A stretch of DNA of 64,000 nucleotides from Blastomonas sp. SL216 (lineage in GTDB: Bacteria > Pseudomonadota > Alphaproteobacteria > Sphingomonadales > Sphingomonadaceae), in NCBI GenBank assembly GCA_026625625.1, contig CP113055.1, positions 2,959,001-3,023,000 of the forward strand, read 5' to 3'. Of the stretch, positions 19,848 through 54,957 are shown piece after piece. The notes under the pieces are model-generated. The model saw only the letters and a list, made by a program, of their open reading frames with translations, had not been told where the DNA came from and ran no database searches. The translations under genes were made by a program, and so were the position numbers. Position 1 is the first letter of the stretch; the number at the start of each line of letters is the position of its first letter.

Positions 19848-20561
19848 ATGCTGCGCACCCTGCTCGCCGTGCTGCGATCGATCCTGTTCACCATCGCCTT
19901 TTATGGCGGATCGGTGTTCATCGTCATCATCGCCTTCATCATCCTGCCCTTCTCGCGCCACCGGCTGCAGGGCATGGCGCGCGGATGGGGCATGTTCCAT
20001 TATTGGTGCGCCTGGCTGTTCCTGGGCATCCGGGTGCGGATCGAGGGGCCCAAGCCGCAGGGCCAGGTGCTCTATGCGATGAAGCATGAGAGCTTTTTCG
20101 AGACCATCGAGCTGCTGCGCATCTTCAACCGCCCCGCCGTGGTCGCCAAGATCGAGCTGTCGCGCATTCCGCTGTGGAGCCATATCGCGCGCACCTATGG
20201 CATGATCTTCATCGATCGCGCTGGCGGCGCGGTGGCGCTGCGCAACATGATGGCAGAGGTCCGCCGCTTCGTTGCCGAGGGCCGGTCGATCGTCATCTAT
20301 CCCGAAGGCACCAGCATCCCGCCGGGCGAGCAGCCGCCGCTGCAGGCAGGCTTTGCCGGCCTCTACAAGCTGGCCAAGCTGCCGGTGGTGCCGATCGCGC
20401 TCGCCAGCGGCCATCTCTATCCCCGGCGCGGCTTCATCAAGCGGCCCGGCGTGGTCACCTATCGCTTTGGCGAGACGATTCCTGCAGGCCTGTCACGCGA
20501 AGAGATCGAGGCGCGGGTGCATGAGGCGATCAATGAGCTGAACGCGGTCGATCGGGGTTGA
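19848..20561 (+). CDS. plsC: 1-acyl-sn-glycerol-3-phosphate acyltransferase (PlsC family)
   Basis: A 237-residue LPLAT-family enzyme transferring an acyl chain to lysophosphatidate. It has an N-terminal helix at about 14-35 and then the acyltransferase motifs: block I is KHESFFE (H-X4-E instead of the usual H-X4-D), block II RIPLWSHIARTYGMIFIDRAGG, block III YPEGTS, block IV VVPIALASG. The H-X4-E form occurs in a known bacterial LPAAT subgroup with KHxSxxET, so it is probably active. It follows ydcF by 5 bp and ends the ftsEX operon. Confidence 0.9.
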   Translation: MLRTLLAVLRSILFTIAFYGGSVFIVIIAFIILPFSRHRLQGMARGWGMFHYWCAWLFLGIRVRIEGPKPQGQVLYAMKHESFFETIELLRIFNRPAVVAKIELSRIPLWSHIARTYGMIFIDRAGGAVALRNMMAEVRRFVAEGRSIVIYPEGTSIPPGEQPPLQAGFAGLYKLAKLPVVPIALASGHLYPRRGFIKRPGVVTYRFGETIPAGLSREEIEARVHEAINELNAVDRG

Positions 20562-20623: not shown

Positions 20624-21595
20624 CTAGATAATTTCGCCAGACAGGCGCTGGCAGATCAGATCGAGCTGGTCCAGGTTGCCGTAGCGGATCGTCACGCTGC
20701 CGCTGCGCTGGTTGGCATCGGCAGTGATCTTGACCTTGAGGCCCAGCAGATCTTCCAGATGCCGCTCGACCGCCTCGATATCGGCATTGCTGCCACCCTC
20801 GCCTGTCCCGCCCGAGCGCGCCTTGCCGCCAGACTTGCCGCCAGCATCGCTGCGTGCGCGGCGGACGAGCTTCTCGACCTCGCGCACCGAAAGGCCGCGA
20901 TCGACCACCTCGGCAGCAATGGCCTCGGCATCGAGCACATTGATCAGCGCGCGGGCATGGCCCATGCTCAGGCTCTTGTCCGCGACCATCTTGAGCACCG
21001 GCTGCGGCAGCGCGAGCAGGCGCATCAGATTGGCGATATGGCTGCGCGACTTGTCGACCATGCGCGCGACCTCGACCGGCGTATAGCCCTGGTCGCCGAC
21101 CAGCCGCTGATAGGCCTCAGCCTCTTCGACCGGGTTCAGGTCCTCGCGCTGGATATTCTCGATCAGCGCCAGCGCCAGCGTATCGGGGTCGCTCAGTTCG
21201 CGAACGATCGCGGGAATTTCATGCAGCCGCGCCCGTTGCGCGGCGCGCCAACGGCGCTCGCCTGCCACGAGCTCGTACCCACCCTGTTGGCGCGGGCGGA
21301 CGATGACCGGCTGGATCACGCCGCGCTGCGCTATCGAGCGAGCAAGATCGTCCAGCGCTTCCTCGTCGAAATAGCGACGCGGCTGCCCGGGGTGCGGGCG
21401 AATGTCGGCCAGCGCGAGCGTGCGCAGCCCGGTCGCAGGCGCGGCCTGGCCTTCGCCCTTGGCCTCAGTGCGGACCAGCGGCTCCTCGCGCCCCGCCTCG
21501 CCAAGCAGGGCGTTCAATCCCCGCCCCAGCCCGGTGGGCCGCTTGCGCCCCAGCGCCTTGGCGATATCAGGCAGACCGCTCGTATCTTCGGCCAT
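20624..21595 (-). CDS. parB: Chromosome-partitioning protein ParB
   Basis: A 323-residue ParB/Spo0J centromere-binding CTPase. It shows KRPTGLGRGLNALLGE near the N-terminus, the ParB domain (IRPHPGQPRRYFDEEALDDLARSI, VAGERRWRAAQ, LALIENIQREDLNPVEEAEAY), a helix-turn-helix (YTPVEVARMVDKSRSHIANLMRLL), and a C-terminal dimer region (ERHLEDLLGLKVKI). The ATG at 21595 overlaps the parA stop (ATGA). Its likely binding sites, parS, are visible in the neighbouring rsmG and mnmE genes. Together with ParA it segregates the origin region. Confidence 0.95.
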   Translation of the reverse strand: MAEDTSGLPDIAKALGRKRPTGLGRGLNALLGEAGREEPLVRTEAKGEGQAAPATGLRTLALADIRPHPGQPRRYFDEEALDDLARSIAQRGVIQPVIVRPRQQGGYELVAGERRWRAAQRARLHEIPAIVRELSDPDTLALALIENIQREDLNPVEEAEAYQRLVGDQGYTPVEVARMVDKSRSHIANLMRLLALPQPVLKMVADKSLSMGHARALINVLDAEAIAAEVVDRGLSVREVEKLVRRARSDAGGKSGGKARSGGTGEGGSNADIEAVERHLEDLLGLKVKITADANQRSGSVTIRYGNLDQLDLICQRLSGEII

Positions 21596-22380
21596 CAGGC
21601 TGCTTCCTCTTTCATCCGGGGCATGCGGGAGATGAACTCGCGCGCAAGCGCGATATAGGCTTCCGATCCGACGCAACGGTGATCGTAGATCAAGGCGGGC
21701 ATGCCATGGCTGGGTGCCTCGGATAGCCGCACGTTGCGTGGGATGACGGTATCGAACACCAGACGTCCCAGCACCGCGCGGACATCGTCGGAAACCTGAT
21801 CGGTCAGCCGGTTGCGCCGGTCATACATGGTCAGCACCACGCCGATGATCGACAGGCCAGGGTTGAAGCGCTGCTGCACCCGCTCGACCGTCTGCAGCAG
21901 CTGACTCAGCCCTTCGAGCGCGAAGAACTCGCATTGCAGTGGCACAAGCACCTGATCGGTCGCGACCAGCGCGTTGAGCGTCAACAGGCCGAGCGAAGGC
22001 GGACAATCGATCAGACACACCTGCCAGCGACCTTCTGGCGCATTGTCCATCGCCGCTTTCAAGCGATGGGTCCGATGGTCAAGGTCGACTAGTTCGATTT
22101 CCGCACCCGACAGATCGACCGTCGCAGGGATCACGTCGAGCCCGGGAATCTGGCTCGGCACACTGCACTGCGCCAGTGAGCTTTCGTTGGTCAGCAGATC
22201 ATAGCTCGAATATTCGCGGTCGTTGCGCGCGATGCCCAGCCCGGTCGAGGCATTGCCCTGCGGGTCGAGATCGATCAGCAGCACCGACAGGCCGGTGGCC
22301 GCCAGCGCGGTTGCCAGGTTGATCGCGGTGGTCGTCTTGCCCACCCCGCCCTTCTGATTCGCGACAGCAATGCGGATCAT
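21595..22380 (-). CDS. parA: Chromosome-partitioning ATPase ParA
   Basis: A 261-residue Walker-type ATPase that drives segregation of ParB-parS complexes. The deviant Walker A is KGGVGKTTTAINLATALAA (residues 10-28), with DLDPQGNASTGLG, CLIDCPPSLGLLTLNALVA and the C-terminal DTVIPRNVRLSEAPSHG. The start ATG at 22380 overlaps the rsmG stop (ATGA), continuing a chain of 4-bp overlaps running mnmG-rsmG-parA-parB. The motif set and position next to parB are those of the chromosomal Soj-type ParA rather than a plasmid one. Confidence 0.95.
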   Translation of the reverse strand: MIRIAVANQKGGVGKTTTAINLATALAATGLSVLLIDLDPQGNASTGLGIARNDREYSSYDLLTNESSLAQCSVPSQIPGLDVIPATVDLSGAEIELVDLDHRTHRLKAAMDNAPEGRWQVCLIDCPPSLGLLTLNALVATDQVLVPLQCEFFALEGLSQLLQTVERVQQRFNPGLSIIGVVLTMYDRRNRLTDQVSDDVRAVLGRLVFDTVIPRNVRLSEAPSHGMPALIYDHRCVGSEAYIALAREFISRMPRMKEEAA

Positions 22381-23066
22381 CACTTGCTCCTGTGTGAGCG
22401 CACGGTCTTGCGGCGCTGCGGCTGTGGCGACGGTTGGGAAGCAGCACGGCCCGTTCCAACGAGAATCGCCGCGTCGGCATCGGTCAGGCTCTGTTCCACG
22501 TGAAACACATGTTGCCACGCAGGCGTGACGCTTTCCAGTTCCGCGCGCGCATTGCGTCCCTTTGGCAGCAACCAGCGCGTCTTTTCTGTGGAAAAGCGTC
22601 CCGCGCCTTCGAGCAGTCGCGGCAAAGGCGCAAAAGCACGCGCCGAAATATAGTCCGCAGCAAAGCCAGGCACCTTGTCGAGCGCCATTCCCGCGACCTC
22701 CACCCGATCTCTCAGCCCGAACATGTCGATGGCCTTGTCGAGATAGGCGATTCGCAGGCCGCGCGATTCGACCAGAGTGACACGGCAGGGCGTGAGCAGC
22801 GCGATGACCAGCCCGGGAAAGCCCGCGCCGCTGCCGAGGTCCATCCAATGCTCGCCCGCTTGCGGATCGGCGAACTGGAGCAGCTGCGCACTATCGGCAA
22901 TATGGCGCCGCCACATCAACGGCAGGGTCGCTGCCGATACGAGATTCTGATGGCGCGCTTCGTCGGCCACGTACGCAGCGAGCCGGTCGAGTGCCTCCAT
23001 TGTTTCACGTGAAACGCCGGGGCGCTGACTGACCCAATGGCGTGCGCTGTCTTCGCTGTCGATCAT
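22380..23066 (-). CDS. rsmG: 16S rRNA (guanine(527)-N7)-methyltransferase
   Basis: A 228-residue RsmG (GidB) methyltransferase modifying G527 of 16S rRNA with S-adenosylmethionine. The SAM motif is [18 protein letters not shown], followed by [18 protein letters not shown] and [19 protein letters not shown]. The C-terminal 35 residues ([18 protein letters not shown]) are basic and may be a lineage extension. The coding sequence contains two parS-like sites (22492 and 23001), which is common for rsmG near the origin. It overlaps mnmG upstream and parA downstream. Confidence 0.94.
22492..22507. other. parS: parS centromere site (15 of 16)
   Basis: TGTTCCACGTGAAACA differs at one base from the universal parS TGTTTCACGTGAAACA. 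It lies in the 3' part of rsmG, 0.9 kb upstream of the parB coding start, and is a likely ParB nucleation site. Confidence 0.85.
23001..23016. other. parS: parS centromere site (15 of 16)
   Basis: TGTTTCACGTGAAACG matches the parS consensus except the last base. It lies near the start of rsmG, in codons for GVSRET. Confidence 0.9.
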
Positions 23067-25008: not shown

Positions 25009-26310
25009 CTATTTGCCGATGCAGAAGGCACCGAACAACGCATCGAGCATATCCTCGACATGCGTCCGCCCGAGCAGCTGATCGAGCGCCAGCCGGGCAA
25101 GGCGCAGCGCCTCTGCGCGAAGCAGCAGATCACTCTGTGCCGCCGCCTGCTCAAGCGCGGCTCCGCATTCGCTCAGCAGGCGATGCTGGCGGGCATTGAG
25201 GGCTACTTCGCCGCTTGCTGGCAGCATAGTCCGAGCCGCAGCGATCAGATCGGCGACCAGCGCATCCAGACCTTCACCGGTGCGCGCCGATAGGCGGTGG
25301 CGTGCGCCCTGCTTTGTTTCACGTGAAACAGCGGCACGGTCGGTCTGCGCTTCCACCTCCCACAAAACGGGATGATCGGGGCCCTCTCCCTCCGGTCCCA
25401 GCCACAGCACGATGTCTGCCGCCGTCATGGCCTGATGCGCTCGCTCGATACCTATGGCTTCGATCGCTTCGGCACCATGGTCGCGCAATCCCGCAGTATC
25501 GGTGAGCACGAACGGTACTCCGCCCAGCGCCACCGGCGCCTCGATCACGTCGCGCGTGGTCCCGGCAATGTCGGACACGATCGCCGCGTCGCGTTGCAGC
25601 AGCGCATTGAGCAAGGTCGATTTACCCGCATTGGGTGGCCCTGCCAGAACGACGCGGATGCCATCGCGCAACCGCTCTGCGCGAGGACGCGCCAGTGCAT
25701 CTTCGATCTGCCCGGAAAGCGCAGCGATCCCCTCACCCACCGCATCATCGGCATGTTCGGGCACATCGTCTTCATCCGAAAAATCGAGCGCCGCCTCGAC
25801 CAGTGCGGAGAGCCGCAACAGGTCGGTCCGCCACGCCTCGACCTGGCGCGACAGATGGCCGCTCGCCACCCGCACCGCGGCCACGCGCTGCGCCTCGGTT
25901 TCGGCAAACAGAAGGTCGGACAGGCCCTCGGCCTCAGCCAGATCGATGCGGCCGTTGAGGAACGCCCGCCGCGTGAACTCGCCCGGCTCGGCGAGCCTCA
26001 ACCCTGCCATGCCGGACAAAGCATCTTCCACCGCCCGCACCACAGCCCTGCCTCCATGCAGGTGCAGTTCGGCCAGGTCCTCGCCCGTGGCATTGGCAGG
26101 GCCGGGAAACCACAGCACGACGGCGCGATCGAGCAGCTCATGCGATTCAGGGTGGGATAGCGTCCGCAAAGAGGCGCGGCGTGGCTGCGGAACGGTGCCG
26201 CACAACGCCTTCAGCGCCAGGCCAGCCTCAGGCCCGCTGATGCGGATGATCGCCAATGCAGCGGGTGGTGCGCCGCTTGACAGCGCATAGATCGTCTCAC
26301 CCGCATGCAT
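25009..26310 (-). CDS. mnmE: tRNA modification GTPase MnmE
   Basis: A 433-residue GTPase partner of MnmG. The N-terminal folate-binding domain begins [13 protein letters not shown]. The G-domain has [17 protein letters not shown] and [11 protein letters not shown], and the C-terminal CIGK catalytic motif is present. NKXD and the helical domains are in place. The protein is normal in length. A perfect parS site lies inside the gene (25315-25330). It precedes mnmG by 95 bp on the same strand and probably starts the mnmE-mnmG-rsmG-parA-parB transcript. Confidence 0.95.
25315..25330. other. parS: parS centromere site (perfect)
   Basis: TGTTTCACGTGAAACA is an exact 16-bp match to the universal parS palindrome. 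It lies within mnmE, in codons for VSRETK, and about 8 kb left of the proposed origin. Confidence 0.95.
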
Positions 26311-26581: not shown

Positions 26582-26695
26582 GGCAATACCCTTATTCAGC
26601 GCAAAGGCCCCCAAGCCCCGGATTCACGCTTATCAGCATGGTCAAAGTGGGTATAAACGGGTCACAAATCAATCGAATTGATGATGGAGAGCATA

Positions 26696-27406
26696 ATGGG
26701 TTCGACGCACAGCATCCCGACTTTCGACCATGACGCCAGCTTCAACGCCTATGTCGCCCAGCCTGTGGGCACACCGAAAGCCGCGATCATCGTCATCCAG
26801 GAGATTTTCGGCGTCAACGAAGGCATTCGCCGCAAATGCGATGGCTGGGCTGCGCTGGGCTATCTCGCGGTGGCGCCAGATCTGTTCTGGCGGATCAAGC
26901 CGGGAATCGAGCTCGACCCCGATGTCGAGGCGGAGCTGCAGGAAGCGTTCGGCTATTTCGGCCAGTACGATCCCAATGACGGGGTCAAGGATATCGAGGC
27001 GACCATCCGCGCCATCCGTTCCGGCGTTGGCGGGCTCGAGGGCGTCGCCAAGGTCGGTGCGGTCGGATACTGTCTCGGCGGAAAGCTTGCCTATATGGTC
27101 GCCGCGCGCACCGATGTGGACGCCAGCGTCGGCTATTACGGCGTGATGATCGACCAGATGCTGAACGAATCGCATGCCATTGCCCAGCCGCTGATGCTGC
27201 ACATTCCCACGGCCGATCACCTGGTTGGCCCCGAAGCGCAGGCGACGATCCATGCCGGGCTGGACGATCACCCCAAGGTGACGCTGCACGATTACGAGGG
27301 GCTGGACCATGGCTTTGCCGCCGAAATGGGCAACCGCCGCAATGATGCCGGTGCCGAGCTCGCCGATGGCCGTACCGCCGCCTTCTTTGCCGAGCATTTG
27401 GCATGA
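26696..27406 (+). CDS. Dienelactone hydrolase family protein
   Basis: A 236-residue alpha/beta hydrolase of the dienelactone hydrolase family. The catalytic triad is Cys126 (GYCLGGK), Asp174 (PTADHLV) and His205 (LDHGF), and the Glu36 of QEIFG is the usual charge relay. The ATG at 26696 follows GGAGA with good spacing; three upstream in-frame starts are less well placed. It may act in aromatic degradation or on other esters; no pathway genes are next to it. It overlaps the next gene by 4 bp (ATGA), so both are probably co-transcribed. Confidence 0.9.
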   Translation: MGSTHSIPTFDHDASFNAYVAQPVGTPKAAIIVIQEIFGVNEGIRRKCDGWAALGYLAVAPDLFWRIKPGIELDPDVEAELQEAFGYFGQYDPNDGVKDIEATIRAIRSGVGGLEGVAKVGAVGYCLGGKLAYMVAARTDVDASVGYYGVMIDQMLNESHAIAQPLMLHIPTADHLVGPEAQATIHAGLDDHPKVTLHDYEGLDHGFAAEMGNRRNDAGAELADGRTAAFFAEHLA

Positions 27407-27801
27407 GCGCCGCGCAAGCCGGAATCGCCGCCTGGCATGACTATATGCACGGCGGATCGGAGCCCGAAAAGCTGAGCGCGATGCTGGCGGACGATGCGGT
27501 GTTTCACTCGCCTGTCGTCCACACCCCGCAGGAAGGCAAGGCCAAGGTCTTCGCCTATCTGCACGCAGCATCGTACGTGCTGGGCAATGACAGCTTCCAT
27601 TATGTCCGCGAGATCGTCGACGGCGATACCGCCGTGCTCGAGTTCGCGCTGGTGCTCGATGGCATCGCGGTCAACGGCGTCGACATGATCCGCTGGAATG
27701 CCGACGGCCAGATCGAGGACTTCAAGGTGATGGTCCGTCCGTTGAAGGCGATCAACAAGGTATGGGAGAAGATGGGCGAAATGCTTGCCAAGGCGGGTTG
27801 A
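27403..27801 (+). CDS. NTF2-like (SnoaL-type) protein
   Basis: A 132-residue cone-fold protein: MLADDAVFHSPVVHTPQEGKA, then VREIVDGDTAVLEFALVLDG and IRWNADGQIEDFKVMVRPLKAI. This pattern fits the SnoaL/NTF2 superfamily of small enzymes or binding proteins. There is no signal peptide. The start overlaps the stop of the dienelactone hydrolase (ATGA), suggesting a shared metabolic job, but the reaction is unknown. Confidence 0.8.
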   Translation: MSAAQAGIAAWHDYMHGGSEPEKLSAMLADDAVFHSPVVHTPQEGKAKVFAYLHAASYVLGNDSFHYVREIVDGDTAVLEFALVLDGIAVNGVDMIRWNADGQIEDFKVMVRPLKAINKVWEKMGEMLAKAG

Positions 27802-32123: not shown

Positions 32124-33155
32124 TCATACGCCCTGCTTCACCAGTGTAAGCAGTGCGTGCACGTGTTCAATGGGCGTCTGCTGCAATATGCCATGCCCCA
32201 GATTGAAAATATGCGGCCGCCCCTCGAACGTGCGGATGATGTGCCTGACCGCGCTTTCCATCTGCTCGCCGCCCGCCAGCAGCGCCAGCGGATCGAGATT
32301 GCCCTGTACCGGCAGATGCGCCGGGATGTTGGCTGCAGCCCAGACCGGATCGATCGTCTCGTCCAGACCCAGTGCATCGACGCCGGTCTCGCGCGCGTAG
32401 GCGGCAAGCTTTTCGCCCGCGCCCTTGGGGAAACCGATCACCGGAACGCCGGGCCGCGCGGCGTGAATGGCCGCCGCGATGCGCGCATTGGGCGCGATCA
32501 CCCAGCGTTCGAACTGCGCCGGGGCAAGCGATCCCGACCAGCTGTCGAAAATCTGCACCGCATCGACGCCGGCATCGATCTGGCCGATCAGATACTGGAT
32601 GGTGAGGTCGACGATGGCATCGATCAGCGCCTGAAAGCCAGCGGGATCGCGATAGGCATATTCGCGCGTGGCATGCTGGTCCTTGCTGCCCTCGCCATTG
32701 ACCATATAGGTCGCGACGGTCCAGGCAGACCCTGCAAAGCCCAGAAACGCCTTTTCAGGCGCGAGCTCGGCCTTCACCAGGCGCACGGTCTCATAAATGG
32801 CCTCAAGCCGCTGGTGGACCGGCACAAGGCTCTCCAGCGCATGATCGAGCAGCCGGGGCGACAGATGCGGCCCCTCGCCCACCAGGAACTTCAGATCCTG
32901 GCCCATGGCATAAGGCACGATCAGGATATCGGAAAACAGGATGGCGGCATCGAGATCGAACCGGCGCAGCGGCTGCAGCGTGATCTCGGCAGCGGCGGGG
33001 CTGTCATAGACCAGCTCCAGAAAGCCGCCTTTCTCTGCCCGCAAAGCCCGGTACTCGGGCAGGTAGCGTCCGGCCTGACGCATCATCCACATCGGCGGCA
33101 CCTTGGCCACCTGACCCGCCAGGCAATCGAGCAATGGCGCCTTGCGCGCCGTCAT
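32124..33155 (-). CDS. hemE: Uroporphyrinogen decarboxylase
   Basis: A 343-residue cytosolic enzyme converting uroporphyrinogen III to coproporphyrinogen III. The N-terminal PPMWMMRQAGRYLPEYRALR motif, the catalytic Asp of FSDILIVP, FAGSAWTVATYM, and GVDAVQIFDSW are all intact. I chose ATG 33155 (MTARKAPLLDCLAGQ); ATG 33176 would add seven residues (MGGDTTQ). It reads leftward away from the proposed origin, and in Caulobacter and Rickettsia hemE flanks the replication origin. Confidence 0.95.
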   Translation of the reverse strand: MTARKAPLLDCLAGQVAKVPPMWMMRQAGRYLPEYRALRAEKGGFLELVYDSPAAAEITLQPLRRFDLDAAILFSDILIVPYAMGQDLKFLVGEGPHLSPRLLDHALESLVPVHQRLEAIYETVRLVKAELAPEKAFLGFAGSAWTVATYMVNGEGSKDQHATREYAYRDPAGFQALIDAIVDLTIQYLIGQIDAGVDAVQIFDSWSGSLAPAQFERWVIAPNARIAAAIHAARPGVPVIGFPKGAGEKLAAYARETGVDALGLDETIDPVWAAANIPAHLPVQGNLDPLALLAGGEQMESAVRHIIRTFEGRPHIFNLGHGILQQTPIEHVHALLTLVKQGV

Positions 33156-33272
33156 CTGAGTTGTGTCCCCACCCATCTTAATTCTTATATCCTTTATATA
33201 GGGATTGTTGTTGAAGAAGGCCGCTGGAAAACCGGCATGACGCTTTCTTGCCTTATGTATCGACAGATTGAC

Positions 33273-33309
33273 AGTCGGCAAATCGCCCGAGGCTGACGAG
33301 TCGGCAAAT
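33273..33309. repeat. 11-bp direct repeat within the origin
   Basis: AGTCGGCAAAT occurs at 33273-33283 and again at 33299-33309, with start points 26 bp apart. The second copy abuts the TTATCCCAG box. It could be an initiator or regulator site, or chance. Confidence 0.6.
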
Positions 33310-33349
33310 TTATCCCAGCTTTCAACAGGCTGTGGGAAAACCTGTCCCG

Positions 33350-33358
33350 TGTGGATAA
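33350..33358 (-). promoter_or_regulatory. DnaA box (perfect)
   Basis: On the minus strand the nine bases read TTATCCACA, the strong consensus DnaA-binding site. It lies in the proposed origin, about 100 bp before the PPSR start. Confidence 0.8.
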
Positions 33359-33460
33359 GCCCCGTGATGAATCTCCGGTCAGGGGGGAGCGATTCCATCC
33401 CCGGTTTTGCCCACAATATCATGCCTTGATTTATCCCCGCGCTGCCCACAGACCAGAGGC

Positions 33461-34315
33461 ATGAGCCGCTTCCACCTCCATCTCTTGTCAGATTCCACCG
33501 GTGAGACGCTGGAGAACATCGCCAAGGCGGCGCTGGCCCAGTTCGACGCGGTCGAGATCATCAAGCATTTCTGGCCGATGGTCCGATCGGAGACGCATCT
33601 CGACCGGATATTGGACGAGGTCGCCGCCAATCCCGGGCTGGTGCTGTTCACGCTGGTCAATCCCGATATCCGCGCCAAGCTCGAACGGCGGTGCCGGGTG
33701 CTGGGCCTGCCGATGGTGCCCGCGCTCGATGCGGTGACCGACGCCTTGTCCAACCTGCTCGGCCAGGCGGCCAAGGCGCGTCCGGGCCGGCAGCATGTGC
33801 TCGATGCCGCCTATTTTGCGCGTGTCGAGGCGATCCAGTTCACCATCGCGCATGACGATGGGCAGAATTGGGAGAATTGGGAGGCGGCGGACATCGTGCT
33901 TGCCGGCGTGTCGCGATCGTCGAAGACGCCGACCTCGATCTATCTTGCCAATCGCGGCTACAAGACCGCGAATATCCCGATCGTCGTCGAATCCCCGCCG
34001 CCTTCTGCGCTGTTCACGCTCAGGCACCCGCTTGTCGTCGGGCTGACGACCAATCCGGAACGGCTGATCGCGGTGCGCCGCAACCGGCTGTTGTCCTTGA
34101 ACCAGGCCCCCGAAACCGACTATGTCAATGACGAGAAGGTCAAGGCCGAGCTGGCCTTTGCCCGGCGGATGTTTGCGGATAATGGTTGGCCGGTGATCGA
34201 CGTGACGCGCCGGTCGATCGAGGAATCGGCAGCGGCGATCATCAACCTGTTCAACGAGCGTGAAGCCGCGCGCGAGAACAGGCGCCAGGCAACAGACCCA
34301 GTGGACAAGGCCTGA
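33461..34315 (+). CDS. Bifunctional kinase/pyrophosphorylase regulatory protein (PPSR family)
   Basis: A 284-residue DUF299 protein. The N-terminal LLSDSTGETLENIAKAAL, the IVLAGVSRSSKTPTSIYLANRGY P-loop, and GLTTNPERLIAVRRNRL are hallmarks. The family phosphorylates and dephosphorylates PEP synthetase or PPDK with ADP and Pi. Whether a PPDK or PpsA is the target here is not visible. Homologues of this gene (RP001 in Rickettsia) flank the origin in alphaproteobacteria. The start ATG 33461 (MSRFHLHLLSDSTG) is preferred over the upstream open frame from 33407. Confidence 0.92.
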   Translation: MSRFHLHLLSDSTGETLENIAKAALAQFDAVEIIKHFWPMVRSETHLDRILDEVAANPGLVLFTLVNPDIRAKLERRCRVLGLPMVPALDAVTDALSNLLGQAAKARPGRQHVLDAAYFARVEAIQFTIAHDDGQNWENWEAADIVLAGVSRSSKTPTSIYLANRGYKTANIPIVVESPPPSALFTLRHPLVVGLTTNPERLIAVRRNRLLSLNQAPETDYVNDEKVKAELAFARRMFADNGWPVIDVTRRSIEESAAAIINLFNEREAARENRRQATDPVDKA

Positions 34316-41144: not shown

Positions 41145-42155
41145 TCAGATCAGCCCGGCGAGCGGACTGGAAGGATCGGCATATTTGCGCGTGCCCATGC
41201 GCCCGGCCAGATAGGCATCACGGCCTGCCTCGACCGCCAGCTTCATCGCGCGCGCCATGCGGATCGGATCCTTCGCCTCGGCAATGGCGGTGTTCATCAG
41301 CACGCCGTCGCAGCCCAGCTCCATCGCGATTGCCGCATCGGACGCGGTACCGACGCCTGCATCGACCAGCACCGGCACCTTGGCGTTCTCGACGATCAGC
41401 CGGATGGTGACGCGGTTCTGGATGCCCAGCCCCGATCCGATCGGCGCGCCCAGCGGCATGATCGCCACCGCGCCTGCGTCTTCCAGCCGCTTGGCGCCGA
41501 TCGGATCATCGACGCAATAGACCATCGGCTTGAAGCCTTCCTTGGCCAGGATCTCGGTGGCGCGCAGCGTCTCGTGCATATCGGGGTAGAGCGTCTTGGC
41601 CTCGCCCAGCACCTCCAGCTTGACCAGATCCCATCCGCCTGCCTCGCGCGCCAGGCGCAGCGTGCGGATTGCTTCCTCGCCGGTGAAGCAGCCTGCGGTA
41701 TTGGGCAGATAGGTGATCTTCTTCGGATCGATAAAGTCGGTCAGCATCGGCGCACTGGGGTCCGACACGTTGACCCGGCGCACCGCGACGGTGACGATCT
41801 CCGCGCCCGAGGCTTCGAGGGCTGCTGCGTTCTGCGCAAAGTCCTTGTACTTGCCGGTGCCGACAATCAGGCGCGAACGGAAATGGTGGCCCGCCACGCT
41901 CCAGCCATCATCGGCGGGCGCATGGTCGCCGCCGCCGACGAAATGGACGATCTCCAGCCGGTCGCCGTCCTGCACCATCACCTCGGCAAGCGTCGACCGC
42001 GGCACGATCTCCAGGTTGCGCTCGACCGCGACCTTGGCGGTATCAAGCCCCAGGGTACCGACCAGGGCGGCAATGCTGTGCCCGGCGGGCACGCGGCGCG
42101 GCTCGCCATTGATATGGATGCTGATCTGAGCGGTGTCGGTGGAGGTGCTGGTCAT
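41145..42155 (-). CDS. thiSG: Fused sulfur-carrier ThiS and thiazole synthase ThiG
   Basis: A 336-residue fusion protein. Residues about 10-76 are a ThiS sulfur carrier: [22 protein letters not shown] and [13 protein letters not shown]. Residues about 85-336 are ThiG with [11 protein letters not shown], Schiff-base lysine K179 (VKLEVLG), and the phosphate-binding [29 protein letters not shown]. Free ThiS ends in Gly-Gly for thiocarboxylation; here the GGG (74-76) is internal and followed by DHAPADDGW. The protein makes the thiazole phosphate of thiamine. The ATG 42155 is preferred. The fusion occurs in other sphingomonads. No thiE or thiF is adjacent. Confidence 0.93.
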
Positions 42156-42219
42156 AGGCCGCGACTCTTGGCGCGGATAAAGGGGCAAGGGCAAGCCCCA
42201 ATATTGGCAATCGCGGTGA

Positions 42220-54012: not shown

Positions 54013-54957
54013 GTGACCGCCAACGCCATCGAAGCGCATGGCCTCGTGAAGATTTTCGGACGGCAGCGCGCGGTGGACGGGGTGGACCTCACCGTGCCCG
54101 CCGGCAGCATCTTCGGCATTCTCGGCCCCAATGGCGCGGGCAAGACCACGACGCTGCGCATGCTGCTGGGGATTGTCGATCCCGATGAGGGGACGCGCAC
54201 GCTGCTGGGCACCGATCACCCGCTCGATGTCGCGCGCCGCGTGGGCTACCTGCCCGAAGAGCGCGGCTTGTACCCGTCGATGAAGGCCTATGACGCCATC
54301 GCGTTCATGGGCGCGCTGCGCGGGCTGCCGCTCGCCGAAGGGCGCAGGCGCGGCCGCGCGATGCTGGAGGAGCATGGCCTCGGCAAGGCGGTGGACAAGG
54401 AGGTGCGCACGCTCTCCAAGGGCATGGCGCAGACGGTGCAGCTGCTCGGCACCCTGGTGCACGAGCCCGAGCTGATCGTGCTCGACGAGCCGTTTTCGGG
54501 GCTCGATGCGCTCAACCAGGCCAAGCTGGAACGGTTGATCCGGGCCCAGGCCGCGCGCGGCGTGACCGTGATCTTTTCCACCCATGTCATCGCGCATGCC
54601 GAACGGCTGTGCGAGCGCATCGCGATCATTGCAGGCGGCAAGGTGCCCTTTGCAGGGTCGGTCTCCGAAGCGCGCGACCGGCTGCGCCCGCAGGTGCGGC
54701 TCGAGACGCGCGCGCTCGAGGGGCCGTGGCGCGCAGCCTTGCCAGCGGACGCGGTTCCGGAGGGGCATTTCTGGCACTTTACCCTGCCCGAAACCGGGGT
54801 CGAGCCGCTGCTGCGCGCGCTGATCGAGGGCGAGGCGGGCATCCAGTCGCTGTCGATCGAGCGGCCAGGCCTGCACGATGCCTTTGTCGCGATTGCCGGG
54901 GCCGATGCCGCGCGCCAGCTCGAAGAAGATCAGCAGCAGGAGAGCGCCGATGCCTGA
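54013..54957 (+). CDS. ABC transporter ATP-binding protein (NatA-like)
   Basis: A 314-residue ATPase with Walker A GPNGAGKTT, RVGYLPEERGLYPSMKAYDAI, signature LSKGMAQTVQL (a variant of LSGGQ), and Walker B LIVLDEPFSGLD. The C-terminal about 90 residues are the DUF4162-like tail of NatA-type exporters. The start is GTG at 54013 with AAGGA before it. It overlaps the permease by 8 bp. The exporter may move Na+ or other small substrates; not decided. Confidence 0.92.
   Translation: MTANAIEAHGLVKIFGRQRAVDGVDLTVPAGSIFGILGPNGAGKTTTLRMLLGIVDPDEGTRTLLGTDHPLDVARRVGYLPEERGLYPSMKAYDAIAFMGALRGLPLAEGRRRGRAMLEEHGLGKAVDKEVRTLSKGMAQTVQLLGTLVHEPELIVLDEPFSGLDALNQAKLERLIRAQAARGVTVIFSTHVIAHAERLCERIAIIAGGKVPFAGSVSEARDRLRPQVRLETRALEGPWRAALPADAVPEGHFWHFTLPETGVEPLLRALIEGEAGIQSLSIERPGLHDAFVAIAGADAARQLEEDQQQESADA

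Follow-up and report, generated by a model that had tools for sequence, protein, structure and literature searches.

Where does replication of the Blastomonas sp. SL216 chromosome begin, and how is the DNA opened there? The question is raised by a 284 bp intergenic gap (33177..33460, unstranded) with 51% GC in a window of about 65% GC. By window we mean the whole stretch of DNA analysed, 64,000 nucleotides long (G000:C1:2959001-3023000), which sits in a single contig of 3,863,332 bases, 99.99% complete; unless the contig is named, positions up to 64,000 are those of the window and larger ones those of the contig. A preliminary description of this DNA had placed the gap between hemE and PPSR and read it as the active origin of the chromosome. 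Profile matches bear out both boundary genes, the divergent hemE on the left (32124..33176, minus strand; TIGR01464, 379.8 bits; start uncertain, with ATG at 33176 or 33155) and PPSR, the PEP synthase / PPDK regulator gene, on the right (33461..34315, plus strand; NF003742, 330.1 bits). PPSR has one match in the chromosome. A second hemE-linked region, which that description had named as the case against an origin here, was looked for, and hemE too has one match in the chromosome. The flanking genes had been described as all running outward. This holds for hemJ (UPF0093), rho and a TerC/YjbE-type gene to the left and for maf, aroE, coaE, dnaQ, hpf and ptsN to the right, but not for the genes of a dienelactone hydrolase (26678-27406), a SnoaL-like protein (27403-27801) and an acyltransferase (19848-20561) on the left or for thiS-thiG (41145-42194) on the right, all of them oriented toward the gap. 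Our answer to the first part of the question is that the gap is almost certainly the DnaA-dependent origin of the chromosome. The earlier reading is supported by GC skew and GGGNAGGG polarity, which switch in the region, by a dif-like site opposite, by parS sites, by conservation and by the gene pair.

We sampled skew in 20 evenly spaced stretches of 20 kb, plus the window split at the candidate, giving 22 segments that cover 12% of the chromosome. An origin in the window and a terminus near 0.95 Mb fit the GC skew in 21 of the 22: it was positive in all 10 segments from 2,992,301 through the contig end to 792,000, and negative in 11 of the 12 from 965,001 to 2,992,300, the exception being 1,737,001-1,757,000. 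The polarity of GGGNAGGG agreed at 103 of 121 sites (right replichore, 47 forward and 8 reverse; left replichore, 10 and 56); it ran against the trend in two segments (2,702,001 and 3,667,001) with few sites each. The sole dif-like site found, with two mismatches to the typed pattern, lies at 949,720, or 0.471 of the chromosome from the gap, and the direction of GGGNAGGG flips between the 945-950 kb and 950-955 kb bins, again on few sites. As a separate observation on base composition, contig positions 1-20000 (L017) have a GC content of 0.554, compared with 0.62-0.67 in the other sampled segments, and are possibly a foreign island.

Sites for segregation were found close to the gap. Within two mismatches, parS occurs at four places. 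Three of them have at most one mismatch and lie 8.0-10.8 kb left of the gap, one perfect (25315..25330) and two with a single mismatch (23001..23016 and 22492..22507; all three unstranded), and the fourth, with two mismatches, is about 67 kb to the left. The first three adjoin parB (20624..21676, minus strand; PF02195, PF17762, PF23552) and an open frame with parA (21595..22848, minus strand; PF13614, 200.2 bits), in which the domain begins at residue 160, the true start being inside the frame. We scanned eight genomes with large contigs, own included. In seven of them, 19 parS sites with no more than one mismatch were found, all 6.7-16.4 kb from the gap, with no match in G016; in six there was one dif-like site each, at 0.38-0.49 of the contig, with no match in G027 and G028 (these fractions are approximate for G006, G009 and G016, which are not single contigs).

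In many bacteria the origin lies at dnaA, and the closest pair of perfect DnaA boxes in the chromosome is found at 2.0636 Mb, but an origin at either place has practically no chance: dnaA (3.543 Mb) is 551 kb from the gap, with no perfect box near and positive skew on both sampled sides (3,474,001 and 3,667,001), and the box pair (2,063,580-2,063,613) has negative skew on both sampled sides (1,930,001 and 2,123,001) and is far from both switches. The pair itself is inverted, with the boxes 16 bases apart (L003 1501-1534), downstream of a DUF3429 gene and an argininosuccinate synthase gene; it could be a DnaA-titrating site or a terminator stem.

At a finer scale composition is less precise. 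A skew minimum near 33.3 kb had been predicted, and the GC minimum of the window alone (34,117) agrees with it loosely, but the keto curve is lowest at 54,038, and over 2,855,001-3,083,000 the two minima are found at 2,915,126 (GC, 77 kb left of the gap) and 3,013,038 (keto, 21 kb right). The GC curve wavers to about 2,991 kb with no one clear trough and rises steadily only past about 3,015 kb. Over the same region GGGNAGGG has its best single switch at 3,004.7 kb, 12 kb right of the gap, and 31 of 45 sites agree with it. Local skew and GGGNAGGG both switch away from the gap and thus did not pinpoint it; composition resolves the origin to no better than about 100 kb. Inside that interval, we chose the gap because of the gene pair, the boxes, the AT tract, parS and conservation. 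The gap could also be imagined as a divergent promoter region with conserved regulatory sites, with the true origin elsewhere in the ~100 kb of the composition switch. This would suit the local switches that fall off the gap, and conserved blocks also come from divergent promoters. We consider it very improbable, given the density of DnaA boxes in the gap, the gene pair and the layout of AT tract plus box kept across the order, and the similar distance of parS in seven of the eight genomes.

The evidence from the boxes is as follows. The one perfect DnaA box that had been reported, TTATCCACA (33350..33358, minus strand), is indeed the sole perfect box in the window. In an alignment of nine congeneric genomes it is perfect in two and has one mismatch (TTGTCCACA) in the rest. 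The description had added several near-boxes, a statement that depends on the threshold: there are four with two mismatches but none with one in the gap (33177-33460). The four are GTATCGACA (33257..33265, plus strand), inside a block (33255-33277) invariant in the nine congeneric genomes, TTTCCCACA (33331..33339, minus strand), TTGCCCACA (33407..33415, plus strand), also invariant in the nine, and TTATCCCCG (33431..33439, plus strand). Such a cluster is above chance, at least five sites within two mismatches per 284 bp being found in 0.03% of 678,892 overlapping sampling windows from 688 kb of the chromosome, the gap itself included. Over the whole chromosome TTATCCACA occurs 6 times, compared with 15 times for the same letters read backwards; perfect boxes may be avoided outside the origin.

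The gene pair was followed in two sets of genomes. PPSR was found in 39 of the 40 genomes searched, own included, and was missing in G014 (86% complete, 7% contaminated). It stands beside a divergent hemE in all 39, and again in all 80 GTDB loci taken as the best 80 of 541 confirmed relatives; these loci repeat five genomes of the first set, and removal of identical gaps left 114 unique gaps. Among the matches listed, the closest named ones for PPSR (94-98% identity) belong to Sphingomonas ursincola, Blastomonas natatoria, Blastomonas sp. AAP53, Sphingomonas sp. 35-24ZXX and Blastomonas aquatica. In nine Blastomonas genomes, own included, 184 of the 284 gap columns are invariant; the corresponding counts in PPSR are 97 of 260 for third codon positions and 34 of 129 for four-fold sites. 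To judge from these alignments, the gap is under constraint and more conserved than the adjacent synonymous sites, a signal that alone cannot tell an origin from promoters. One deposited sequence deserves mention here: the single contig of G036 starts 72 bases before its PPSR match (L067, G036:C1:1-2336), and apparently its depositors set the chromosome start at the hemE-PPSR origin.

Similar origins have been described before. The oriC of Sphingopyxis granuli was placed by hemE, and this location is predicted for most Sphingomonadaceae in DoriC (PMC4741004, from the part of the text available). Since a hemE-linked oriC in Sphingomonadaceae is thus in print, the Blastomonas origin is a further case of a known type. 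With the oriC of S. granuli TFA it shares the position at hemE, the conserved neighbourhood, several DnaA boxes and a putative DUE, a likeness of layout rather than of letter-by-letter comparison; it differs in that the Blastomonas box beside the DUE has two or three mismatches. The Caulobacter-type origin and those of Rickettsiales relatives (PMC1914354, partial text) are also alike in the hemE boundary gene, the DnaA boxes and an AT-rich stretch. In contrast to the CtrA-controlled origin of the Caulobacter type, no TTAA-N7-TTAA CtrA site was found in any of the 39 gaps.

Methylation sites are a further feature of the gap. GANTC, predicted here as a CcrM-type target, is found at 33298..33302 (unstranded) and again at 33369 and 33391, that is, three times where 0.37 are expected per 284 bp. 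At least three were reached by 1.1% of all sampling windows and 2.9% of those with low GC in the sampled chromosome. Over the 114 gaps GANTC was the most enriched of the 16 palindromes of its form, with 460 occurrences against 163 in dinucleotide-shuffled sequences and 86 expected from flanking DNA, and it occurs within 110 bp of hemE in 84 of them (41 when shuffled). A RAMA-domain protein is encoded at 717 kb, where the open frame, judged by eye, looks like a CcrM-type methyltransferase. In ori2 of A. tumefaciens hemimethylated GANTC was proposed to prevent refiring (PMC11514494, partial text). That the Blastomonas origin might be kept from refiring through GANTC is only an idea, taken by analogy.

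We turn now to the second part of the question, the opening of the DNA, where the short repeats give this origin its one unusual feature, their letters. The AT-rich tract mentioned in the preliminary description is present at the hemE end of the gap, which has 64% AT over 50 bases, a value equalled by 990 of 686,383 50-mers in 688 kb of the chromosome. The tract proper (33177..33204, unstranded) has 75% AT and is proposed as the unwinding element (DUE). It is followed on the plus strand by the array TTG-TTG-TTG-AAG-AAG (33205..33219), proposed as variant DnaA-trios under the rule N[AT]G, then by a spacer GCC and by GCTGGAAAA (33223..33231, plus strand), a degenerate anchor box with three mismatches at the site where other genera have TGTGGA(T/A)A. 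The anchor carries three mismatches in eight of the nine Blastomonas genomes and two in the remaining one. Runs of at least five N[AT]G were found 140 times in 688 kb of the chromosome, and only the array at 33205-33219 is preceded by 30 bases that are at least 70% AT. The same layout, reading from hemE, is common to many relatives: an AT-rich tract, a trinucleotide array phased by G, a short GC-rich spacer and TGTGGA(T/A)A or a degenerate form of it. In 38 of 39 genomes, the half of the gap next to hemE holds the AT-richest 40-mer.

This arrangement is close to the basal unwinding system (BUS) with DnaA-trios (PMC8287927, PMC10721633, both partial texts), with which it shares the AT tract, the trinucleotide array, the short GC spacer, the DnaA box and the expected strand; it differs in an array that is mostly T-centred, an anchor box with three mismatches and the failure of the published rule. 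That rule (PMC8287927, partial text) is a DnaA box with up to two mismatches located 0-16 bp from at least three NAN trinucleotides. Scanning forward and reverse, we found no such combination in the own genome; among the 39 genomes it was found in 17 forward and 12 reverse, with 4.1 expected from mononucleotide shuffles. When the rule was relaxed to N[AT]G, 69 of the 114 unique gaps had at least three consecutive trinucleotides; dinucleotide-shuffled sequences gave 20.8 and the opposite strand gave 1. When a single middle base was allowed, the number of gaps was 33 for T (4.2 shuffled), 4 for A (0.9) and 3 for C (0.8). Taking one genome per genus, the N[AT]G array appeared in 17 of 29 genera, against 4.5 with mononucleotide shuffles. 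These statistics are a lead, not proof, the rule having been relaxed after inspecting the data, the gaps being related to one another and the array region being picked by its AT content. T-centred trinucleotides are common at the opening site in the Sphingomonadales, and trios without a middle adenine were suspected among the origins that could not be scored in PMC8287927 (partial text).

From the observed place, polarity, neighbours, conservation and box cluster, we infer DnaA binding, opening and firing. DnaA would bind at 33350, where the box is perfect, and at the weaker boxes nearby, and would fill toward the degenerate anchor at 33223. Guided onto the plus-strand array TTG-TTG-TTG-AAG-AAG (33205-33219), it would hold single-stranded DNA and open the AT tract at 33177-33204, where the helicases would be loaded. 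Two forks would then run outward to meet near the dif-like site at 949,720, and the new origins would be moved apart by ParB sitting on parS, 8-11 kb to the left of the gap.

The opening step alone might proceed as in E. coli, with single-stranded TTGT and TTATT drawn to box-bound DnaA and the array not read as DnaA-trios. To this we give close to an even chance. It agrees with the failure of the published trio rule in the own genome, and we take it to be about as good a reading because the E. coli DUE needs TTGT (PMC5742627, PMC10316083, partial texts) and TTGTTGTTG contains it. The likeness to the E. coli DUE with its TTGT and TTATT (PMC5742627, partial text) extends to the place of TTGT, on the strand with TGTGGATAA orientation beside the AT-rich element, but the Blastomonas array is phased in threes. 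Over the 114 gaps, G at each third base beside the anchor exceeded the shuffles and was strand-specific, and TTGT alone needs no such phasing.

A reading of the array as variant trios leads to the DnaA protein itself. In B. subtilis Asn187 holds the middle adenine of the trio; a T there works poorly for the protein and slows strand separation and growth (PMC10721633, partial text). We aligned the Blastomonas DnaA with chain 8btg_A, whose listing names DnaA only and which we took as the B. subtilis protein because its residues at these numbers match those named in PMC10721633. Asn is found at the place of residue 187, Glu183, Lys222 and Glu228 are retained, and Ile190 is changed to Val, Asn196 to Gly, Arg202 to Lys and Glu223 to Asn. 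In ten of ten relatives, from ten other genera and mapped by tblastn, Asn is replaced at the contact position by Val, Ile, Phe, Tyr or Leu. We looked for dnaA in three congeners by assumed synteny in 20 stretches with no match; the contact Asn is therefore known for one Blastomonas genome only. As a separate matter, Pfam Bac_DnaA scores much lower in the family of the window (E about 1e-50, three genomes and own) than in other families of the order (about 1e-70, seven).

A strict match of residue to middle base was not seen, G026 (Tyr) and G027 (Phe) having TAG arrays, and the link between the change of contact residue and T-centred trios is loose. Tentatively, and as less likely than not, we suggest that the Sphingomonadales may use a variant unwinding code, in which DnaA would read phased and often T-centred trinucleotides (TTG, ATG) with loss of the Asn that holds adenine. 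Blastomonas has the Asn, its anchor box is decayed and the two trios closest to that box are A-centred; on this view it would be an intermediate or a reversal. In the literature searched (titles, starts of abstracts and few subscription papers) we found no report of T-centred trios or of the DnaA residue change in Sphingomonadales, which is weak evidence of absence.

With the origin placed, gene dosage, replichores and strand bias in the genus can be referred to a fixed point. Besides, origins in which T-centred trinucleotides abound occur naturally in the Sphingomonadales, in combination with DnaA proteins changed at the contact residue.
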